From contig JALVZS010000119.1 of the NCBI GenBank assembly GCA_027022065.1, positions 1-8,852 of the forward strand: a stretch of DNA of 8,852 nt, in the 5' to 3' direction. A model generated the notes under the pieces. It did no database searches. It was not told the DNA's origin and worked only from the letters and a program-made list of their open reading frames with translations. This document shows positions 403 through 8,852 of this stretch, piece by piece. Numbering within the stretch: the first letter of the stretch is position 1; each line of letters starts with the position of its first letter. Origin of the DNA: a bacterium. GTDB lineage: Bacteria; Thermosulfidibacterota; Thermosulfidibacteria; Thermosulfidibacterales; Thermosulfidibacteraceae. The position numbers and the translations under genes were made by a program.

Positions 403-436
403 TTTTGGCTTTTAACAGTTTAGACTAAAGCCAAAA
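403..436. repeat. Inverted repeat (10-bp arms) around the -10 of the acyl-CoA dehydrogenase promoter
   Basis: Arms TTTTGGCTTT (403-412) and AAAGCCAAAA (427-436) are perfect reverse complements separated by 14 bases. The candidate -10 hexamer of the acyl-CoA dehydrogenase promoter falls inside the loop, and one arm lies in its spacer. That placement is what a repressor operator would have, for example a TetR- or GntR-type regulator of fatty-acid genes, although no known consensus is recognised. It is not followed by a T run on either strand, so a rho-independent terminator for ispE is less likely. Confidence 0.45.
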
Positions 437-445
437 GCATTTCAA
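417..445 (-). promoter_or_regulatory. Candidate sigma-70-type promoter for the acyl-CoA dehydrogenase gene
   Basis: On the minus strand TTGAAA (445-440; 5 of 6 consensus) is followed after exactly 17 bases by TAAACT (422-417; 4 of 6). Transcription would begin near 410, leaving about 25 bases before the ATG at 384. The element lies in the short gap after ispE, so the dehydrogenase can be expressed independently of ispE. The match is by eye only. Confidence 0.4.
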
Positions 446-473
446 TATTACCAAAATGCAGAAATACCAAAGA

Positions 474-1316
474 CTAGCAGAACGTAGCCTTGTACTTAAA
501 GGGGACATCCACCTCAGTCTCTTCCTTGAATCCCAAAGCAAAAAAGCCAGAACCGCTCCCCGTCATCTGGGCAAAGGTGCTGTTTCCCACAAGCAGTCTC
601 TTCAGGTCAGAAAGGCCCGGACAACGCCTAAAGGCAGGATACTCCAGGTGATTGAAAAAGTGCTGGGAGTAAAGGGAAAAATCGGCTGTTTTTACAACCT
701 CCAATATCTTTCCTCTATCAAGCAATGGCTTTTCTTTCAAAACCTCATCCTGCATCTTGTCAAACTCTTCATAAATCTCTTTTGTAGAGAGGGAAAAGTC
801 CGGTATGAATACCCAAACCTCGCGCCCCTTAAGATCCACCTCTATAGGGAAAAGCTTCTCCCCAACCCCCTCTGCTACAGCAACAGAGTAGTTTGAAACA
901 AAGAAGGGAACATCCGCCCCAATTTCGGCAATATCCTCTAAAAGTTTATCATCCTTTTCCCCAAAGAACCTTATAAGGCCCCTAATTACAGCTCCCGCAT
1001 CGGAACTGCCGCTCCCCAATCCGCTTCCAGGGGGCATCCTCTTCTCTATAGCAATCTTAACTCCCCAGTTCTTTATACCGTAGCGTTTAAGATACCACCT
1101 AGCGGCTTTGTAAACGATGTTCTTAGGCCCCGTAGGAACGGTATAAGGACCGTCAATGGAAAGCTCCACAACGGGTTCTCTTTTGGCCTCAATGTAGATG
1201 TTGTCGTGAAGAGAAATCCTTACAAAAACCGTTTGTAGATTATGGTATCCGTCCTCTCTCACATCCGTTATCTGCAAGTGCAGATTTACCTTGGCAAAGG
1301 CCTTCTCTCTTAGCAT
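474..1316 (-). CDS. ispE: 4-diphosphocytidyl-2-C-methyl-D-erythritol kinase
   Basis: This cytosolic GHMP-family kinase phosphorylates the 2-hydroxyl of 4-diphosphocytidyl-2-C-methyl-D-erythritol with ATP, the fourth step of the non-mevalonate isoprenoid pathway. The 280 residues match the usual length. Visible landmarks are the N-terminal AKVNLHL (catalytic-type Lys9) with DGYHNLQTVF at 22-31, the ATP loop PPGSGLGSGSSDAG at 95-108, the catalytic Asp135 in GADVPFFV, and the C-terminal GHMP motif MTGSGSGFFALG at 251-262. The ATG at 1316-1314 is the only usable start: a stop lies eight codons upstream in frame and no GTG or TTG intervenes. Its ribosome binding site is weak (AAGGT directly against the ATG). 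The start is only 17 bp from the first ATG of the divergent methyltransferase reading frame, so its promoter must overlap that gene. Neighbours do not belong to the pathway. Confidence 0.95.
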   Translation of the reverse strand: MLREKAFAKVNLHLQITDVREDGYHNLQTVFVRISLHDNIYIEAKREPVVELSIDGPYTVPTGPKNIVYKAARWYLKRYGIKNWGVKIAIEKRMPPGSGLGSGSSDAGAVIRGLIRFFGEKDDKLLEDIAEIGADVPFFVSNYSVAVAEGVGEKLFPIEVDLKGREVWVFIPDFSLSTKEIYEEFDKMQDEVLKEKPLLDRGKILEVVKTADFSLYSQHFFNHLEYPAFRRCPGLSDLKRLLVGNSTFAQMTGSGSGFFALGFKEETEVDVPFKYKATFC

Positions 1317-1372
1317 ACCTTGGCTGTTACCAGATGTTCACAAAAGGGTCAACAGCGTGTATAAGGCAAGGT

Positions 1373-1957
1373 ATGATAGAAGTGGGAGAAAAGCTAAGAA
1401 TAGTGAGACCAGGTTTTAAATGCCCGCCATCCGAGAGAATAGACATCGTAATCAAAAGAGGAGCCTTCGGTTCCGGTGAGCACGAGACCACGAAGAGCTG
1501 TCTGGAAGAGCTGGAGAAGATTCCCCTTGAGAACGGGCTTGTTCTGGATATAGGCTGCGGAACGGGGATACTGGCCATAGCAGCGGTTAAACTGGGGGCA
1601 TCAAAAGCGGTATGCGTGGACATAGCAAGAGAGGCCATAGAAACCACCCTGGAGAATGCAAAACTGAACACTATTCAGGATAGAATAGTACCTATTCTTG
1701 GAACGATTAGAAATGTTCCTAAAGAGTATCTCTTAAGCTGTGACATAGTGCTAGCCAACATATATCCAGAGGTGCTAAGGGATATAGCAGACGAGCTGGC
1801 TTTAGTAAAAGAAGGTTGCATTCTCATAGGCTCCGGGGTGCTGTGGGAGGACAACTACGAGATAATTGAGCTATACAAGTCCAAAGGGTTCAAGCTTCTA
1901 ACAAACCGCTGGCTTGAGCAGTACACAACCTTTGTGCTGGAAAAGGTTAAATCCTAA
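1373..1957 (+). CDS. prmA: PrmA-like (ribosomal protein L11) methyltransferase lacking the N-terminal domain
   Basis: PrmA uses S-adenosylmethionine to methylate ribosomal protein L11. Only the catalytic Rossmann-type domain is here. With the start used the protein has 194 residues, against about 250-300 for full PrmA. Motifs are FGSGEHETT (32-40; PrmA FGTGxHxTT), motif I DIGCGTG (59-65), an acidic residue after the second strand (Asp83 in CVDIA), and LANIYPEVL (127-135) in the place of the PrmA substrate-site NILAxPL. The ATG at 1373 is preferred because AAGG precedes it by six bases and because homology begins there ([10 protein letters not shown]). An in-frame ATG at 1334 would add 13 residues without resemblance to PrmA and has no ribosome binding site. 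Upstream the same frame runs antisense through ispE and does not look like the missing L11-recognition domain. It may be a minimal PrmA or methylate another target. The 3' end overlaps the convergent chemoreceptor by 11 bp. Confidence 0.8.
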
Positions 1958-3680
1958 AGCTCTGCACCACCTCCTTAAGCCTCTCCACTGAGGCCTTAAC
2001 AGCCTCAACAACCTTAAGCATTTCCTGGGCATTCTCTCTGTTCTTTGAAGCCACCTCCGCAAGAATCTGTATGTTGTCCGCTATATCCCTTGAGGCTATC
2101 TCTTGCTCCTTGGTAGCGTTGGTTATCTCAAGGGACATCTGGGTTATGACCTCAACCGCCTCCACTATGGCGGAAAGTACCTCGTTCACCTCATCAGAAA
2201 TCTTTAGACCCTCCTCAACCTTCTGCACTCCTTCTCTAACCTTGTCCACAGCATCCATGGAGTCCTGCCTTATCTCATTAACCATATCGGCAATCTCCTT
2301 GGTAGCCTTCTGGGTCCTGTCCGCAAGCTTTCTTATCTCATCGGCCACGACGGCAAAGCCCCTTCCATGCTCGCCAGCCCTTGCCGCCTCAATGGCAGCA
2401 TTCAAAGCAAGAAGATTGGTCTGTCCTGCTATGTCGTTTATCACTTTAGTAATCTCCCCTATTCTCTCGCTTGAGCGTCCAAGCTTTTCTATGGTTTTGG
2501 CAGAAAGCTCCACAGCCTCTGCTATCTCCCTCATCTTTTGGGTCATCTTCTTGATTGCTTCCTCCCCCGTGGAGACCTTATCGGACTGCTCCACCGCCTT
2601 CTCCCTCACAGAAGAGGCAGACTCCGCAACGGTCTTGCTGGTAACGCTGAACTCCTCAGACGCAGCAGCCACCTGATCCACCCTTTCAAACTGCTCATCA
2701 GCTCCCGTCTTAACCTCCTCGGCTATGGAGCTTAAGCCCTCAATACTTCTGGATATATCCTCCTCGGCTCCCTTTACATCCCCCATTGCGTTCCTTAAAC
2801 CTTCCGATGTGCGGTTTATGCTCTTGGCAATGGCCCCTACCTCATCCTCTCTGTCTATGTCAACAGCGACCTTCAGGTCTCTGTTGGCAAGAAGCTCTAA
2901 GGCCTCAACTATTTTACCAACAGGCTCAGAAAGCACCTTCCTCAAAAACAGCCATATAACCAGCACCGCAACCACAAGAATAACCGTGCCAAATCCCACA
3001 AGCTCAGCAATTATCCTGTTAACCTCCGCGTAAACCTTGCTCATATCCGCTATGAAGACATAGGCACCGTGGATTTCTCCCTCCTTCCAGCCCTCCATCT
3101 TGGCTCCCGTAATATCGTAGCCGTCATGATCCACGTCATCCTGCACCGTACCATGGCACTTGAGGCAACTTTTAGACAGCCTCAACATGCGCATGTAGTA
3201 GAGCTTGCTACCGTCAGGTGTTAAGGCCCATATCTCGTTTACGTTCTTCTCCTTAGCCTTGGTTATCAGAGCATTCTCAAAGGCATTGGGAGTATGGGCA
3301 GGATTTCTGGGATGCTGCTTCAATACTTTAAAGGTGTAGCCCGCCTCCTTGGCCCTCTCCTCAGCAACAGTCCAACCAGCCACAACAGGAATGCTTTTAT
3401 AAAAACTGGTTTTCTCTAAAGGAATCCCTTTTGCCCTAGCCTCTTTAAAAAGCTTTTCAAGCTTCGCATCGTCTATAACGCCTATTGCGTGTAGTTTATC
3501 CACATACCTCAAAGTATTTTCAGCAACAATGGAAACGCCCCTGGCCCTTTCTATGAGTTTCTGCATAGTGAAATGAATAATCTCATGTCTAACTATGACT
3601 GTGTTAATCACGAAATTAACGATAAAAGCCACTATAACGATAAGTATAACTTTAGCCCCCAGGGAAAGTTTCTTAAACAT
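1947..3680 (-). CDS. Methyl-accepting chemotaxis protein with periplasmic heme-c (Tll0287-like/DUF3365) sensor domain
   Basis: A transmembrane chemoreceptor that should signal to CheA/CheW. Order in 577 residues: TM1 about 10-30; periplasmic domain about 31-225; TM2 about 226-247; HAMP about 248-300; cytoplasmic coiled-coil signalling domain 301-577, with the conserved hairpin tip near 415-450 ([16 protein letters not shown]). The periplasmic part contains [13 protein letters not shown] at 123-135 and CLKCH at 172-176. This is the pattern of the Tll0287-like (DUF3365) fold, in which CxxCH binds heme c covalently, so the signal is probably redox, O2/NO or electron supply; which one is inference. 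There is no CheR-tethering NWxxF pentapeptide at the C-terminus (ends VVQSFRI). The ATG has a strong GGGGGAGG just upstream and a good promoter at 3758-3786. It is transcribed divergently from the hydrogenase operon, whose third gene is a second heme-c receptor. Confidence 0.92.
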
Positions 3681-3757
3681 AACCTCCCCCCAAGTTGTTT
3701 AATGACCCACTCTTCAATATCGTTCAGCTCTGATAAAAATTTAAAGTCCTTTTGGAA

Positions 3758-3786
3758 ATTATACCGCAAACCCGCTTCAATAACAA
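3758..3786 (-). promoter_or_regulatory. Candidate sigma-70-type promoter for the divergent chemoreceptor gene
   Basis: On the minus strand TTGTTA (3786-3781; 4 of 6) and a perfect TATAAT (3763-3758) are separated by exactly 17 bases. Transcription would start near 3750, about 70 bases before the ATG at 3680. It is the best promoter match in the window. Its -35 lies 11 bp from the -35 of the oppositely directed hydrogenase promoter, so one regulator bound between them could act on both. Confidence 0.55.
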
Positions 3787-3797
3787 GAGTTACATAA

Positions 3798-3826
3798 TTG
3801 AAACTAGAAAAGGGTTGTGCTAAATT
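3798..3826 (+). promoter_or_regulatory. Candidate sigma-70-type promoter for the hydrogenase-chemoreceptor operon
   Basis: TTGAAA (3798-3803; 5 of 6) and TAAATT (3821-3826; 4 of 6) are separated by exactly 17 bases. Start of transcription would be near 3833, giving a leader of about 24 bases that contains the GGAGGT ribosome binding site at 3847-3852. The hexamers resemble those proposed for the acyl-CoA dehydrogenase gene, so it may be an ordinary housekeeping promoter. Confidence 0.45.
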
Positions 3827-3856
3827 TCATACAAAGGCAAAAACTCGGAGGTATCC

Positions 3857-5323
3857 ATGGTCAAAAGGATCTCGCCCCTCACCCGCATAGAGGGACACCT
3901 TAAGGTGGAAGTGGATGTGGAAAACGGAAAAGTAAAAAGCGCAAGGGTATCGGGAGAAATGTACAGAGGATTTGAAAACCTCCTTATAGGGAGGCGACCC
4001 CTTGATGCTCAAAGAATAACGCAAAGGGTGTGCGGTGTGTGCCATGAGGTACACGGGATAGCATCCAGTAAAGCCCTTGCTGATCTTTACAAAATAGAGC
4101 CTCCACCCAACGGAAAGTTACTCAAGGACATAATCCTGGCCCTTCACATGAGCATAGACCACATACTCCACTTCTTCACCCTGGCCCTTCCGGATTATGT
4201 AGACTTCTCTGCACTTTCCGTCTACAGGGGAAAAGACCCCAAGCTTAACAGGCTTAAAGAGTGGGTAGTGTCAAGGCGTCCGTGGCTCTACACTAAGAAG
4301 GTTCCTGGAAACTACATAGAGGACCCACAAACCGCCATCCCTTTAGTAGCTGCATACATTGAAGCATTTGATAAACTCTCCCTTGGAGCCTCTGCTCTAG
4401 CAACCCTAGGTGGTAAAGCGCCCTTTGCCCACAACGTTTTTCCGGGAGGCGTTTCGGTAGAGCTGACCATGGACAGGATTATGAAGGTCTCAAACATTGT
4501 GGATCAGCTCCTGTACTTTGTAAAAACAAAATACATACCCTCCGCTGTGGAGGTGGCCAAGCGCTATAGGGAATACTTCTACATAGGCCACGGATACATG
4601 AACCTCTTAAGCTACGGAGGCTTTGAGGCTACAGGAACCCCTCTTTACACCCCAGGGATCATGATAAACGGGAAGCTGTATCCCCTTGATGTTGATCAGA
4701 TAGTAGAGGATGTGAGCCACTCTTACTACGATGGGGAAGCGGAAAGCTTTAGAAAAGAAGAAACAAGACCCCACTATGGCAAAAAGGGAGCCTACTCCTG
4801 GATAAAGGCCCCAAGGTACAAGGGACATCCCATGGAAACTGGTCCCATATCAAGGATACTGGTAACGCCGAGCACAAGGGAAAGCTTCCTCTCCTTTCTG
4901 AAGAGGGAATTCGGTGTGGGAATAAAGGAAGCTTTTTCTACAAACGGCAGAAACCTCGCAAGGGCGTTTGAAGCAAAGCTACTGCTTGAGTACGTTAATA
5001 AGGCACTCTCAAAGCTCAATCCAAAAGAGTCTACGATCGTCACGGTCAATCCGGAGGCCAATGTAACGGGAACGGGACTTGGGCTCTCCAATGCGGCAAG
5101 AGGCGAGCTGCTACATTATATAGAGGCCGAGAACGGAAGAATAACCAAATACCAGATGGTGGTGCCCTCCACCTGGAATTTCTCTCCCAGAGATTACAAA
5201 GGGCAGCCCGGGCCTGTGGAAAAGGCGCTTGAGGGAACACCTGTTAGATTTGCGGAAGGCCTTATAGAGGTAGGTAGGGTCATAAGAAGCTACGATCCAT
5301 GCACCGCCTGCTCCATCCACTAA
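3857..5323 (+). CDS. [NiFe]-hydrogenase large (catalytic) subunit without C-terminal extension
   Basis: This subunit carries the Ni-Fe(CN)2CO site that splits H2. All four Ni-binding cysteines are present: L1 RVCGVCHEVH (57-66; Cys59, Cys62) and L2 DPCTACSIH (480-488; Cys482, Cys485). Other landmarks are RIEGH (10-14, Glu12), SIDHILHFFTL (99-109, Asp101), GGKAPF and PGGV (185-199), AARGELLH (413-420, Arg415), and PSTWN plus RSYDP near the end. The stop codon directly follows His488, so the tail normally removed by a HyaD/HybD-type protease is absent. This resembles H2-sensing HoxC/HupV and some energy-converting enzymes. Val61 is the standard residue where sensors usually have Ile. The Pro that normally precedes the canopy Arg is Ala414. 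A strong GGAGGT sits four bases before the ATG. The large subunit precedes the small one, the reverse of most uptake hydrogenases. It should be carried by Tat together with its signal-bearing partner. Confidence 0.96.
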   Translation: MVKRISPLTRIEGHLKVEVDVENGKVKSARVSGEMYRGFENLLIGRRPLDAQRITQRVCGVCHEVHGIASSKALADLYKIEPPPNGKLLKDIILALHMSIDHILHFFTLALPDYVDFSALSVYRGKDPKLNRLKEWVVSRRPWLYTKKVPGNYIEDPQTAIPLVAAYIEAFDKLSLGASALATLGGKAPFAHNVFPGGVSVELTMDRIMKVSNIVDQLLYFVKTKYIPSAVEVAKRYREYFYIGHGYMNLLSYGGFEATGTPLYTPGIMINGKLYPLDVDQIVEDVSHSYYDGEAESFRKEETRPHYGKKGAYSWIKAPRYKGHPMETGPISRILVTPSTRESFLSFLKREFGVGIKEAFSTNGRNLARAFEAKLLLEYVNKALSKLNPKESTIVTVNPEANVTGTGLGLSNAARGELLHYIEAENGRITKYQMVVPSTWNFSPRDYKGQPGPVEKALEGTPVRFAEGLIEVGRVIRSYDPCTACSIH

Positions 5324-5330
5324 GGGAGGG
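5324..5330 (+). promoter_or_regulatory. Ribosome binding site fixing the hydrogenase small-subunit start at 5335
   Basis: GGGAGGG begins directly after the large-subunit stop and ends four bases before the ATG at 5335. The alternative upstream ATG at 5299 has no such site and would add 12 residues (MHRLLHPLREGK) ahead of the Tat motif. The ATG at 5335 places the twin-arginine at residues 3-4. Confidence 0.8.
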
Positions 5331-5334
5331 AAAA

Positions 5335-6240
5335 ATGGACAGAAGAGAGTTTCTCAAATACTGTGGGAAAATTTCCCTTCTCTTTACCGGTTCTCTGCTT
5401 TTTGCAGAGGACATAGCAAGGGCTTTTGTTAAGATAGCAGAAGGTGCGGTAAACATCCTGTGGTTGCAGGGTCAGGCCTGCTCAGGGGACAGCGTATCAC
5501 TACTTTACGGGGACTCCCCAGAGGTTCCAGAGCTCATAACAAGCATCATAAATTTAAGGTTTCACCCAGTAGTATCCGTTGCCCAGGGTGAGCTTGTCAT
5601 GCGGATAATAAATCAGGAGCTGAAAAACAAAGACTACATTCTGTGCTTTGAGGGCGCCGTTCCATACAAGATGCTCGGAGCATGCAAGATAGGAGAATTC
5701 TACCTTACAGAGATCCTGAAGAAGGCCATAAGCTCATCCATAGCGGTGGTGGCGGTGGGAACCTGCTCTTCTTACGGTGGGATTCCTGCTGCCAACAAGG
5801 AAACGGGCGCCATATCCGTAGTGGAGTTCATGAAAAGAGAAGGGCTCAACAAGCCCTATGTGAGGCTTCCCGGATGCCCCACAAACTCCATAAGGGTTAC
5901 GGGAACCGTGGCTTACATTGTGGCATTTGAAAAGCTTCCCGCTTTGGATACGGATAACAGGCCTATCCTCTATTACCCCGATGTGATCCACAACAACTGC
6001 CAACGCTTCCAGTATTTCTCACAGGACAGGTACATAACCGATTACAACCAAAAGAGGGGATGCCTATTCAAAATGGGTTGCAGAGGGCCCATCACAAAAG
6101 CGGACTGTCCACTGAGGCGCTACAACAGAAATACATCCTGGTGTGTTGACGCCAACGGTCCATGCATAGGCTGTGCCAATCCTAAGTTTCCATGGCCTGC
6201 CGAAACAGGCATATACACTGATCCAAACAGGATAAAGTAG
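5335..6240 (+). CDS. [NiFe]-hydrogenase small (iron-sulfur) subunit, Tat-exported, Asp in proximal-cluster site
   Basis: This subunit conducts electrons from the Ni-Fe site through three FeS clusters. The 301-residue protein begins [12 protein letters not shown], a twin-arginine (RRxFLK) signal, with a hydrophobic stretch to about 24 and a possible AxA cleavage site at 28-30, so the enzyme should be periplasmic. Proximal ligands by position are Cys49 and Asp52 (ACSGDS, where CxxC is usual), Cys144 (GTCSSYGG) and Cys181 (LPGCPTN). Distal ligands are His219, Cys222, Cys243 and Cys249. Medial ligands are Cys258, Cys277 and Cys280 (PCIGC). The supernumerary cysteines of O2-tolerant 4Fe-3S enzymes are absent: Gly occupies both expected positions (51 and 149). 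A 3Cys/1Asp proximal cluster is known from actinobacterial-type (group 1h) hydrogenases. The protein ends soon after the medial motif, with no C-terminal membrane helix, so membrane attachment would need another subunit. No cytochrome b gene is adjacent. The gene lies 11 bp after the large subunit and 10 bp before the chemoreceptor. Confidence 0.95.
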
Positions 6241-6250
6241 GGGAGGAATC

Positions 6251-7816
6251 ATGAGCCTCAAGGCAAAGATCATAACCGTTATATCCGTAAGCACCCTGGC
6301 CATTATAATAGCAGTGCTTGTATCAAACCACATAATTAAAAGCAAAGAGGACAAGCTTTTTACAGACATAATAAAGGTATCCGCAAGAACAGCCGTCAAA
6401 GGCTCTATAGAAGCATTAAGAAAGGGCAACATGAAGTCCTTTGAAACCATCCTTAGAAATGTGGCTTCTGAAAAGGTCATAACGGAGTTCTCGCTAACCG
6501 ATGAAACAGGAAGAGTGAAGTACTCTTCCATCCCCTCAAGCAAAGGGAAGGACTACTCGCGCCTTGTGGCAAACACCACGAGGCACAAGATATTGAGGGC
6601 GGGAAATGAAATTATAAATGTGGTACCTGTAAAGACCACATCCTACTGCATAAGGTGCCACCAGAACTGGCAGGTTGGCCATATAAACACATACTTTGTG
6701 ATAAAGTACGATGCCTCTGTACTGAGCACGCTCGCACATGTTAGGGAAGCCCAGGTAGGTCTTATAGTTCTCATAGGCGTAATTGCCCTGATAGCGGGAG
6801 CGGCCCTGCTTAATCTGACTGTTGGAAGAGCCATAGGCAACTTTAAGAAAGGGGTTGAACTGGTATCTTCAGGAAACTTCTCCTACAGGTTCCCAGAGGG
6901 AAGCGATGAGATGGGTCAGATGGGAGCCCTCCTGAACAAGCTCGTGGAAAGGCTAGCCAACCAGATACTAAATGTTTCAGAGGCCGCCGAAAACGTGGCA
7001 AAGACCACGCAGACCATGGTGAGCTCCGTGGACACCATAGAGAACAGCGCTACCAAACAGCTTGAGGAAGGAGAAGCACTGGCCAGGGCAACCGAAGACA
7101 TCGCTGTTGCCGCAGAGGACATAGCGGTAAGAACGGAAGAGGTAAAAAGCGCCGTTGACGATATGCACCATGTGGTTGAAAGTGGAAAGAGCATAATAAA
7201 CAGGGTTTCTGAAGGAATGGCAAACCTTATAAAGTCCATAGAGGAAATCTCCGAAACCACCCAAAAGCTAGGAGAAAGCTCTGAGGAGATAGGTAACATC
7301 GTGGCGGTCATCAACGATATAACTGGGCAAACGAATCTGCTTGCCTTGAATGCTGCCATTGAAGCGGCAAGAGCCGGCGAGCACGGAAGGGGCTTTGCTG
7401 TTGTGGCCGATGAGGTGAGGAAGCTAGCCGAGCGCACTCAAAGATCCACAAAAGACATAGAACGCATAATAGAAAACATCAGAAGGGACATAGAGCAGGG
7501 CGTGGACATCATAACCAAAGGAGTGGAGGAGGCAAGGGAAGGCAAAAGGATCGTTGAGGAGATAGAAACCTTCTTCAACAAGGTGAAAGAGGATGTTGAA
7601 AAGATAACGGATCAGATGGCCCAGGTTGCGGCTGCTATTGAGGAGCAGAGCCAGACCAGCAAAGAGATGGCAAGAAGAACGGAGTACATAGCAGAAAGCG
7701 CTCAGGAAAATATGAAAGCCGTATCGGAGATGAAGAAGCTGTCCCAAGAGCTCTCGGGCCTCGTGGTCAAGCTGCAGGAGGTAATTGACGAGATAAAAAG
7801 AGGGTTTGAGAAGTAA
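6251..7816 (+). CDS. Methyl-accepting chemotaxis protein with periplasmic CxxCH heme-c site, in the hydrogenase operon
   Basis: A 521-residue transmembrane chemoreceptor. TM1 is about 7-27; a compact periplasmic domain of about 140 residues follows; TM2 is about 168-189; HAMP about 190-242; the rest is a signalling coiled coil with the conserved hairpin tip near 355-390. The periplasmic domain reads like a single Cache/PAS-type sensor ([14 protein letters not shown] at 80-93), then [17 protein letters not shown]. Cys133 and Cys136 with His137 form a heme-c attachment site, as in many deltaproteobacterial heme-c sensors. It differs from the other receptor's sensor, which is longer and of Tll0287-like type, while their tips are nearly identical. 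There is no NWxxF pentapeptide (ends RGFEK). GGGAGG begins right after the small-subunit stop, four bases before the ATG, so it is almost certainly co-transcribed with the hydrogenase. Inference: it may read electrons released by the hydrogenase. Confidence 0.93.
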
Positions 7817-7849: not shown

Positions 7850-7878
7850 TTGCATTCTAAGCAAATATTTGTTATATG
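7850..7878 (+). promoter_or_regulatory. Weak candidate promoter for the nuclease gene (near-leaderless mRNA)
   Basis: TTGCAT (7850-7855; 3 of 6) and TATATG (7873-7878; 4 of 6) are 17 bases apart. Transcription would begin near 7885, only about seven bases before the ATG at 7892, which fits the lack of any ribosome binding site there. In AT-rich DNA such matches are common by chance. Confidence 0.25.
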
Positions 7879-7891
7879 TCTGATTAGATCA

Positions 7892-8758
7892 ATGTGGAGT
7901 AAAAATGAAGAGAAAAAGTTTTTTAAATATGCGTTAAAAATAACTTCTCATGAAAAGTTATTTTATAAAGTTGGCAACAGATATTTAGCATACTGGCCTA
8001 AAAGTTACCGAGGATATAAAACTACCTTACAAAGCAGGAATTCCTATGTGGGAGATTATACTGAGAAATGGCTGGCTAGTCTTTTACATAAGCTAATACC
8101 TAAAAAGCTTTACGTGATCCAAAGTGCTGTTTGTCCTGAAATAGGTTTAACTTCCAATTCACCCGCTGATATAGTTATATCTAAAAGCAAAGAAACAAAG
8201 CAAAATCCGGAAGATATACTTCTTATAGTTGAAGTGAAAATGTCAATTGTATGGAATTGGGAATACTTTCCAGAATCTAAAGAGATTAAATGCATAGGAG
8301 ATTTTACAAGTCACACAGGTAATCCAAGCCTTCTCAGGTCTGATTCTATGCTTAAAGCTATAGGCAAATGCATAAACATACGTGTATCGGACAAAAAAGC
8401 TTCACATATATCCCTAATTGTAGTGGGGAATACTCCAGTATCCAAAAGCTATTATAAGAAAGTAGACAGATTAAATAAAACTGGTATAATTCAAAAGTTC
8501 CTGTCAGTTAATCCCAAACCCACTGATAACGAGAACAGCCTCAATATTAAATATACTCATGGGAAAGGATTCATTCGGGTAGATACTGAAAAAGAGCTTA
8601 AAGAAATTATAATGTCACTGCTTAATAGAGATAAAGTTTTCTTTTCAGGAATGACAGATATGGAAACTTTAGGCAAAATCGTCAAGCAAGCAGCTTATGA
8701 AAATTCCTATGAAGACATAGCTAAGAAATTCTTAGATCTATTGAAAGCTAAAAGATAA
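7892..8758 (+). CDS. Putative type II restriction endonuclease, PD-(D/E)XK fold
   Basis: I do not recognise a named family. The 288-residue protein has a plausible PD-(D/E)XK nuclease core: Glu58 in GDYTEKW, Asp93 in SPADIVI and Glu114-Val-Lys116 in LLIVEVKMS, with strand-like hydrophobic stretches around each and another at SLIVVG (174-179). Such cores occur mostly in restriction enzymes and repair nucleases. Standing alone beside core genes, with a composition of about one third GC by eye against nearly half in its neighbours, it most likely arrived by transfer as part of a restriction-modification system. No methyltransferase is within the window; it would have to lie downstream. The ATG at 7892 is chosen over an in-frame TTG at 7850, which lacks a ribosome binding site and adds 14 residues, but 7892 also lacks one. 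No signal peptide or membrane segment is evident. A defence nuclease of another type is possible. Confidence 0.6.
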   Translation: MWSKNEEKKFFKYALKITSHEKLFYKVGNRYLAYWPKSYRGYKTTLQSRNSYVGDYTEKWLASLLHKLIPKKLYVIQSAVCPEIGLTSNSPADIVISKSKETKQNPEDILLIVEVKMSIVWNWEYFPESKEIKCIGDFTSHTGNPSLLRSDSMLKAIGKCINIRVSDKKASHISLIVVGNTPVSKSYYKKVDRLNKTGIIQKFLSVNPKPTDNENSLNIKYTHGKGFIRVDTEKELKEIIMSLLNRDKVFFSGMTDMETLGKIVKQAAYENSYEDIAKKFLDLLKAKR

Positions 8759-8852
8759 AAAAAGATGAGCAAAATAAAAAAATAACCATAATTATTGATT
8801 TAAGAAGCTACAAAAAAAAAAAAAAAAAAAAAGCTTTGTTATTATTTGAGGA
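8759..8852. other. AT-rich non-coding end of window with A21 tract
   Basis: No gene is evident in these 94 bases. They include an uninterrupted run of 21 A (8812-8832), loosely bracketed by AAGCT (8806-8810 region) and AGCTT. The last bases read TTTGAGGA; GAGGA could be the ribosome binding site of a gene starting just outside the window. No convincing terminator hairpin follows the nuclease gene. Confidence 0.5.

Follow-up and report, generated by a model that had tools for sequence, protein, structure and literature searches.

A [NiFe]-hydrogenase encoded in one conserved unit with a heme-c chemoreceptor: a candidate bacterial module for sensing H2

The 8,852-nucleotide stretch of bacterial DNA analysed here (contig JALVZS010000119.1 of assembly GCA_027022065.1, family Thermosulfidibacteraceae; referred to below in its entirety as the window) encodes the large and small subunits of a [NiFe]-hydrogenase followed by a methyl-accepting chemotaxis protein (MCP) with a heme-c site in its sensor domain (Table 1). 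A preliminary description, made from the sequence alone, had placed the three genes in a single operon and proposed that they serve the sensing of H2. The intact reading frames, with gaps of 11 bp between the two subunit genes and 10 bp between the small subunit and the receptor, confirm the operon, and the ribosome-binding site claimed for each gene is present as a purine-rich motif (GGAGGT, GGGAGGG and GGGAGG). An in-frame ATG upstream, at 5299, gives the small subunit a longer mechanical open reading frame (ORF). Also as described, the small subunit has a start of the RR type characteristic of twin-arginine translocation (Tat) signals, the CIRCH motif of the receptor lies between two predicted transmembrane (TM) helices, and neither a cytochrome b nor a maturation gene is found within the window. 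All Ni–Fe active-site residues are present in the hydrogenase, with the Ni–Fe ligands and the conserved Glu, Asp and Arg of a group 1-type catalytic fold retained. The closest solved structures in a PDB search belong to periplasmic [NiFeSe] and [NiFe] hydrogenases from sulfate-reducing bacteria, a relationship at the family level only. A selenocysteine enzyme was considered and rejected, the C-terminal active-site Cys codons in the window being TGC.

Table 1. Features of the window, in window coordinates
Feature	Position	Strand	Remarks
[NiFe]-hydrogenase large subunit, 488 aa	3857-5323	+	Intact ORF; Pfam NiFeSe_Hases 1.4e-111
[NiFe]-hydrogenase small subunit, 301 aa	5335-6240	+	Intact ORF; Pfam NiFe_hyd_SSU_C 3.8e-27 and Oxidored_q6
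Methyl-accepting chemotaxis protein, 521 aa	6251-7816	+	Intact ORF; Pfam MCPsignal 3e-46 and HAMP
Met61 codon of receptor; the Met is proposed as a switchable heme ligand on the model of GSU0935 Met60	6431-6433	+	Same residue in all 21 sensor domains
CIRCH heme-c attachment site, Cys133-His137 of receptor	6647-6661	+	
Divergent intergenic region, 176 bp	3681-3856		Promoter-like matches on both strands, weak, at about the shuffled expectation
Second heme-c chemoreceptor, Tll0287/sCache_heme domain, CLKCH	1947-3680	-	Pfam

The order large subunit–small subunit–receptor occurs at 25 loci in 24 genomes, distributed over the small group to which the window belongs, 20 of 390 sampled genomes (5%) of a Desulfobacterota-type phylum and one further family. 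Scanning 84,980 species genomes identified four relatives of the large subunit (57–64% identity), three of which run on in the same order into a small subunit and a heme-c receptor; in the fourth, the contig stops inside the small subunit. Searching 395 genomes from the phylum of one of these relatives and inspecting the neighbourhoods yielded sixteen further loci, a domain-wide sample of 386 genomes gave two more, both from one further family, and three others were found only by a search with the sensor domain. Across the aligned set, the large subunits share 38–64% identity with that of the window. By contrast with the trio itself, the genes on either side differ between genomes, and no other conserved neighbour was seen at the 22 loci with listed flanks; shared flanks do occur between close relatives, for example L071/L072 and L068/L082, and Hyp maturation genes are among the flanking genes at L021, L022 and L091. 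The three-gene order is conserved far beyond chance. An assembly artefact confined to one contig of a metagenome-assembled genome can be excluded because several loci lie on contigs of 2.3–4.2 Mb (genomes G369, G116, G425, G295 and G122).

By its own terms the preliminary description would have been refuted by an adjacency peculiar to this genome, or by a respiratory cytochrome partner encoded with close homologues. The order instead recurs amid differing neighbours, and a respiratory partner conserved by the module, whether cytochrome b, HybA/B or a multiheme cytochrome, was looked for and rejected, none recurring at the loci with listed flanks. Three of the genomes that encode the module (G098, G099 and G101) possess in addition a separate, canonical uptake-type hydrogenase with a C-terminal tail. 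A first sample of genome families outside the phylum, where small-subunit matches were at 37–38%, contained only hydrogenases with tails or without a receptor. Some of the homologue sets were gathered with motif regular expressions, and the count of unlinked loci could conceal a divergent MCP.

A feature of the large subunit that the preliminary description had missed is that the window protein stops right at its last active-site motif (DPCTACSIH-stop), with no C-terminal extension. Most [NiFe] large subunits carry a C-terminal peptide that is cleaved after metal insertion, and it is the H2-sensing regulatory hydrogenases (RH) that are made without it (PMC7294309). In all 25 receptor-linked large subunits the frame stops after the final active-site His, leaving a tail of 0 residues, whereas the tail measures 4–24 residues in each of the 32 other large subunits examined, none of which adjoins a heme-c receptor. 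The Fisher value for this association is ~1e-16 (computed with 31 of the others), although it is uncorrected for kinship and overstates the number of independent events. The frame of HoxC, the RH large subunit encoded by pHG1, likewise ends after the final active-site His.

In a maximum-likelihood tree from which the tail columns were excluded, all included receptor-linked sequences fall into one clade with support of 98/98, which also holds two sequences whose receptor position is not visible. Two long reference branches (groups 2b and 1h) and four other rows, including the MCP-linked L064, were omitted from this tree. In an earlier tree with HoxC, HofG, HoxG, HyaB and HybC as references, L064, a long branch, lies inside the linked clade, and the clade as a whole stands apart from HoxC, itself a long branch. 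Because the linked sequences are monophyletic and separate from HoxC, the trees suggest most simply that the hydrogenase–receptor link arose once and that the loss of the tail is convergent with HoxC. The real weight of the comparison is that the trio has been kept together through deep divergence while other neighbours were lost. Variation within the clade extends to the gas channel: a Phe (F117 in the window) is aligned with Leu122 of standard enzymes in the window, L020–L023, L063, L064 and L138, the remaining members having Val or Ile at this column, or Leu in L139. With regard to a narrow, RH-like gas channel, the CGVC motif keeps the standard Val, and HoxC aligned poorly at the Leu122 column.

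Every small subunit whose N-terminus was inspected has an RR-type Tat signal, and there is no C-terminal membrane anchor. At the site of the medial cluster all linked small subunits have four Cys residues, as does HoxB, and for this reason they are predicted to carry three [4Fe–4S] clusters, the number measured in the H2-sensing RH (PMC5665086). The preliminary description did not remark that the motif at the proximal cluster is CxxD rather than CxxC in the window and at L020, L021, L022, L023 and L063, and CxxE at L064; CxxC is kept in other members of the clade. The Asp of CxxD occupies the same alignment column as an Asp in HofK (group 1h).

The receptor comprises a TM helix, a periplasmic single-Cache-like domain containing CIRCH and Met61, a second TM helix, a HAMP domain and an MCP signalling domain. 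An AlphaFold2 (AF2) model of the sensor domain (mean predicted local distance difference test score, pLDDT, 77) shows one Cache-like domain flanked by two helices and matches Cache sensor domains with Z values of up to 12 for a crystal structure; in a Foldseek search with this model the solved sensor domains of the Geobacter heme-c receptors GSU0935 and GSU0582 rank 8 and 17, with many other Cache domains scoring equally well or better. When 21 sensor domains are compared, Gly59, Met61, Phe64, Leu82, Cys133, Cys136 and His137 (window numbering) are the only residues that never vary, and CxxCH is present in 21 of 21. A profile search aligns the Met motif and CxxCH with the Met and CxxCH of GSU0582, if only at E = 0.23. 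Matches to known profiles are weak: E = 0.021 for the window domain against PF21563, under the family cut-off, and at best 0.00028 (PF21563) and 0.0032 (PF11845) among 19 members. In GSU0935, Met60 and His144 are the axial heme ligands, the Met binding the reduced heme in a redox-switched manner, and the heme potentials are −156 mV for GSU0582 and −251 mV for GSU0935 (PMC8396549). The Nernst equation gives −236 mV for the H2 couple at 1e-6 bar and pH 7, with more reducing values at higher pressure, so that reduction by H2 of a heme resembling these two would be downhill over a wide range of H2 partial pressures. A stand-alone heme sensor of 252 aa, with TM helices and HAMP and without a signalling domain, is encoded in the module genome G101 (locus L190, 3388-4146, plus strand).

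The pairing of hydrogenase and sensor domain is also apparent when the search begins from the sensor. With the sensor domain alone as query against the 390 genomes, each of the 21 top-scoring places (E up to 4e-39) adjoins a tail-less hydrogenase, whereas none of the next ten (E from 1e-38) does so, these being other heme receptors or a stand-alone sensor. Pairwise distances between large subunits correlate with those between sensor domains at r = 0.88, compared with 0.58 for the signalling domain; shared descent accounts for part of this correlation. A sensor domain that is in contact with the hydrogenase, or takes its input from it, would be expected to show pairing and co-divergence of this kind.

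The interpretation that we favour, with a probability of roughly 0.7, is that the operon specifies a periplasmic sensor dedicated to H2, which reduces the heme of its receptor and thereby steers the cell by H2. The Tat-exported heterodimer would oxidise H2 and its electrons would travel along three Fe–S clusters and on, directly or via a small carrier, to the heme of the receptor encoded beside it; reduction would then switch the sixth heme ligand, Met61, and the change of ligand would be relayed through the second TM helix and HAMP to CheA. What we infer in this scheme is catalytic activity, the transfer of electrons from H2 to heme, the ligand switch, the sign of the response and its execution by flagellar taxis. 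The comparison of genomes gives good support to a sensory role as such; that electrons reach the heme and that the cell performs H2 taxis are predictions. In a different arrangement, direct contact between the proteins and a change of conformation might carry the signal from hydrogenase to receptor, in the way that HoxBC signals to HoxJ, while the heme responds to a separate input such as NO, CO, O2 or ambient redox. HoxBC does form a tight complex with its kinase (PMC5665086), heme-Cache domains fused to signalling modules bind NO (PMC12889525), and the hemes of GSU0582 and GSU0935 bind CO and NO (PMC8396549). The heme site and Met61 are, however, invariant in all hydrogenase-linked sensors, it is the sensor domain and not the signalling part that tracks the hydrogenase, and such strict pairing is not expected of a heme unrelated to the hydrogenase; we therefore consider this arrangement improbable.

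A chemosensory output is in keeping with the gene content of the genomes concerned. CheA was found in 22 of the 23 module genomes tested, with between one and nine CheA-type kinases per genome, and the flagellar gene FlhA in all 23. Within the phylum sample FlhA is present in 20 of 20 module genomes as against 246 of 390 (63%) overall (hypergeometric 7e-5), it being understood that FlhA-family matches may include a few secretion systems. At one locus (L069 in genome G344, 427-3787, minus strand) a CheA with Hpt, H-kinase_dim, HATPase and CheW domains and a CheW follow directly after the receptor, bringing hydrogenase, receptor and chemosensory kinase together in one cluster; G344 carries a further module, L079. 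An H2 sensor of this type could also act on a Che-controlled output other than flagella, such as pili, biofilm or a second messenger, a scheme that overlaps with the H2-taxis interpretation up to the last step. The receptor's own CheA and CheW at L069 and the multiplicity of CheA-type kinases would suit it, but the excess of FlhA over the 63% background would not, and on balance we think it unlikely. Overall, the H2-sensing interpretation put forward in the preliminary description is strengthened by the missing maturation peptide, the monophyly of the linked enzymes, the co-divergence of large subunit and sensor domain, the invariant heme site and Met, the CheA–CheW pair at one locus and the flagella in 20 of 20 module genomes of the phylum sample.

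Several observations weigh on the other side. The draft genome of the window (G000; 88% complete, 251 contigs) contains FlhA and eight receptors, but no CheA or CheW was detected in it, a gap that we attribute, without proof, to incompleteness. Nor was a second [NiFe]-hydrogenase found in this draft, and for that reason the window enzyme might serve energy metabolism as well; another genome of the same family, G001, has a canonical tailed hydrogenase, and no module was found in it. The absence of a cytochrome b is not decisive, since soluble cytochromes can accept electrons from [NiFe] and [NiFeSe] hydrogenases of the periplasm. The sequence match of the sensor domain to GSU0582 and GSU0935 is weak (E 0.23–0.35). 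Finally, heme-Cache receptors can bind NO (PMC12889525, PMC8396549), and NO is a serious competing candidate for the heme input. Some of these points would suit a respiratory hydrogenase that feeds a soluble periplasmic cytochrome c, the receptor serving energy taxis or redox sensing in general and sharing a transcript for convenience: the closest solved relatives are soluble periplasmic enzymes, redox-sensing heme receptors are known (PMC8396549) and the window genome offers no other [NiFe] enzyme. That one receptor type is retained at 25 of 25 loci while other neighbours change speaks against it, as do the sensor-type loss of the maturation peptide, the co-divergence with the sensor domain and the separate canonical hydrogenases of G098, G099 and G101, making this explanation improbable in our judgement.

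The closest functional parallel to the proposed sensor is HoxBC/HupUV (HydDB group 2b, with the kinase HoxJ), in which a hydrogenase heterodimer likewise acts as H2 sensor with a signalling protein as partner, has a large subunit without C-terminal extension and carries three [4Fe–4S] clusters, as predicted here. Unlike HoxBC, the enzyme described here is Tat-exported rather than cytoplasmic, has the gene order large–small, lies outside HoxC in the tree and keeps the standard gas-channel Val in CGVC; its partner is a periplasmic heme-c chemoreceptor (an MCP at 25 of 25 loci) and not a cytoplasmic histidine kinase. Membership of group 2b was rejected on the basis of the tree, the Tat signal and the partner. 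The Desulfovibrio enzymes HysAB and HynAB ([NiFeSe] and [NiFe], respectively) provide the nearest solved structures and are similarly soluble and periplasmic, the medial cluster being [4Fe–4S] as in [NiFeSe]; the present enzyme differs in having Cys rather than Sec and no extension. The statement in the preliminary description that it knew of no characterised [NiFe]-hydrogenase wired to a chemoreceptor is fair for the [NiFe] enzymes, but an MCP-linked [FeFe] group, C2, is already listed in HydDB as ‘chemotactic (putative)’, with no [NiFe] counterpart in the text searched (PMC5037454). Group C2 resembles the present module in the genetic linkage of a hydrogenase to MCPs and the proposed sensing of H2, but is an unrelated metalloenzyme, whereas the module has a periplasmic [NiFe] enzyme with a heme-c sensor domain as its likely electron acceptor.

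On the receptor side, GSU0582/GSU0935 and the sCache_heme family (DUF3365, Tll0287) also combine a periplasmic Cache-like domain bearing CxxCH with an MCP output and have a Met some 70–84 residues ahead of the heme His. They have been proposed to respond to ambient redox potential or to NO, the resemblance in sequence to the Geobacter receptors is marginal, and the accessible part of their description reports no hydrogenase partner. The heme-Cache family was defined in a 2026 preprint that proposes NO sensing for members fused to signalling domains and makes no mention of hydrogenases (PMC12889525). H2 taxis, the behaviour that the module is proposed to serve, is documented in the archaeon Methanococcus maripaludis, no receptor being named in the portion of the source at hand (cited in PMC4266047), and is suspected in a sulfate reducer (PMC12004927). 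No earlier description of a [NiFe]-hydrogenase–MCP operon was found in the open-licence literature, a scope that makes this weak evidence.

In anoxic habitats H2 has a central role as electron donor, and to our knowledge no chemoreceptor for H2 has been identified in bacteria. The module names both a sensor enzyme and a receptor, predicts a redox mechanism for steering by H2 and is found in about one in twenty sampled genomes of one large phylum. We lean towards regarding its enzymes as a new class of sensory [NiFe]-hydrogenase, periplasmic and with the sole task of reducing the heme of its own chemoreceptor, electrons taking the place of a ligand in H2 taxis, with a single origin and a later spread to at least three bacterial groups. 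If this is correct, sensory [NiFe]-hydrogenases have at least two evolutionary origins, and the maturation peptide was lost convergently.

The remaining features of the window lie on either side of the operon. A second heme-c chemoreceptor, overlooked in the preliminary description, diverges from the hydrogenase operon, the two sharing the 176-bp intergenic region; it is outside the conserved three-gene unit and is not kept at other module loci. Just 3′ of the hydrogenase-linked receptor, in a visibly more A+T-rich stretch, lies an ORF of 302 aa (7850-8758, plus strand) with a weak match to DUF6602 (E 0.00018), and this stretch may be a horizontally acquired piece. The DUF6602-like ORF is followed by a poly-A run near 8812-8832.

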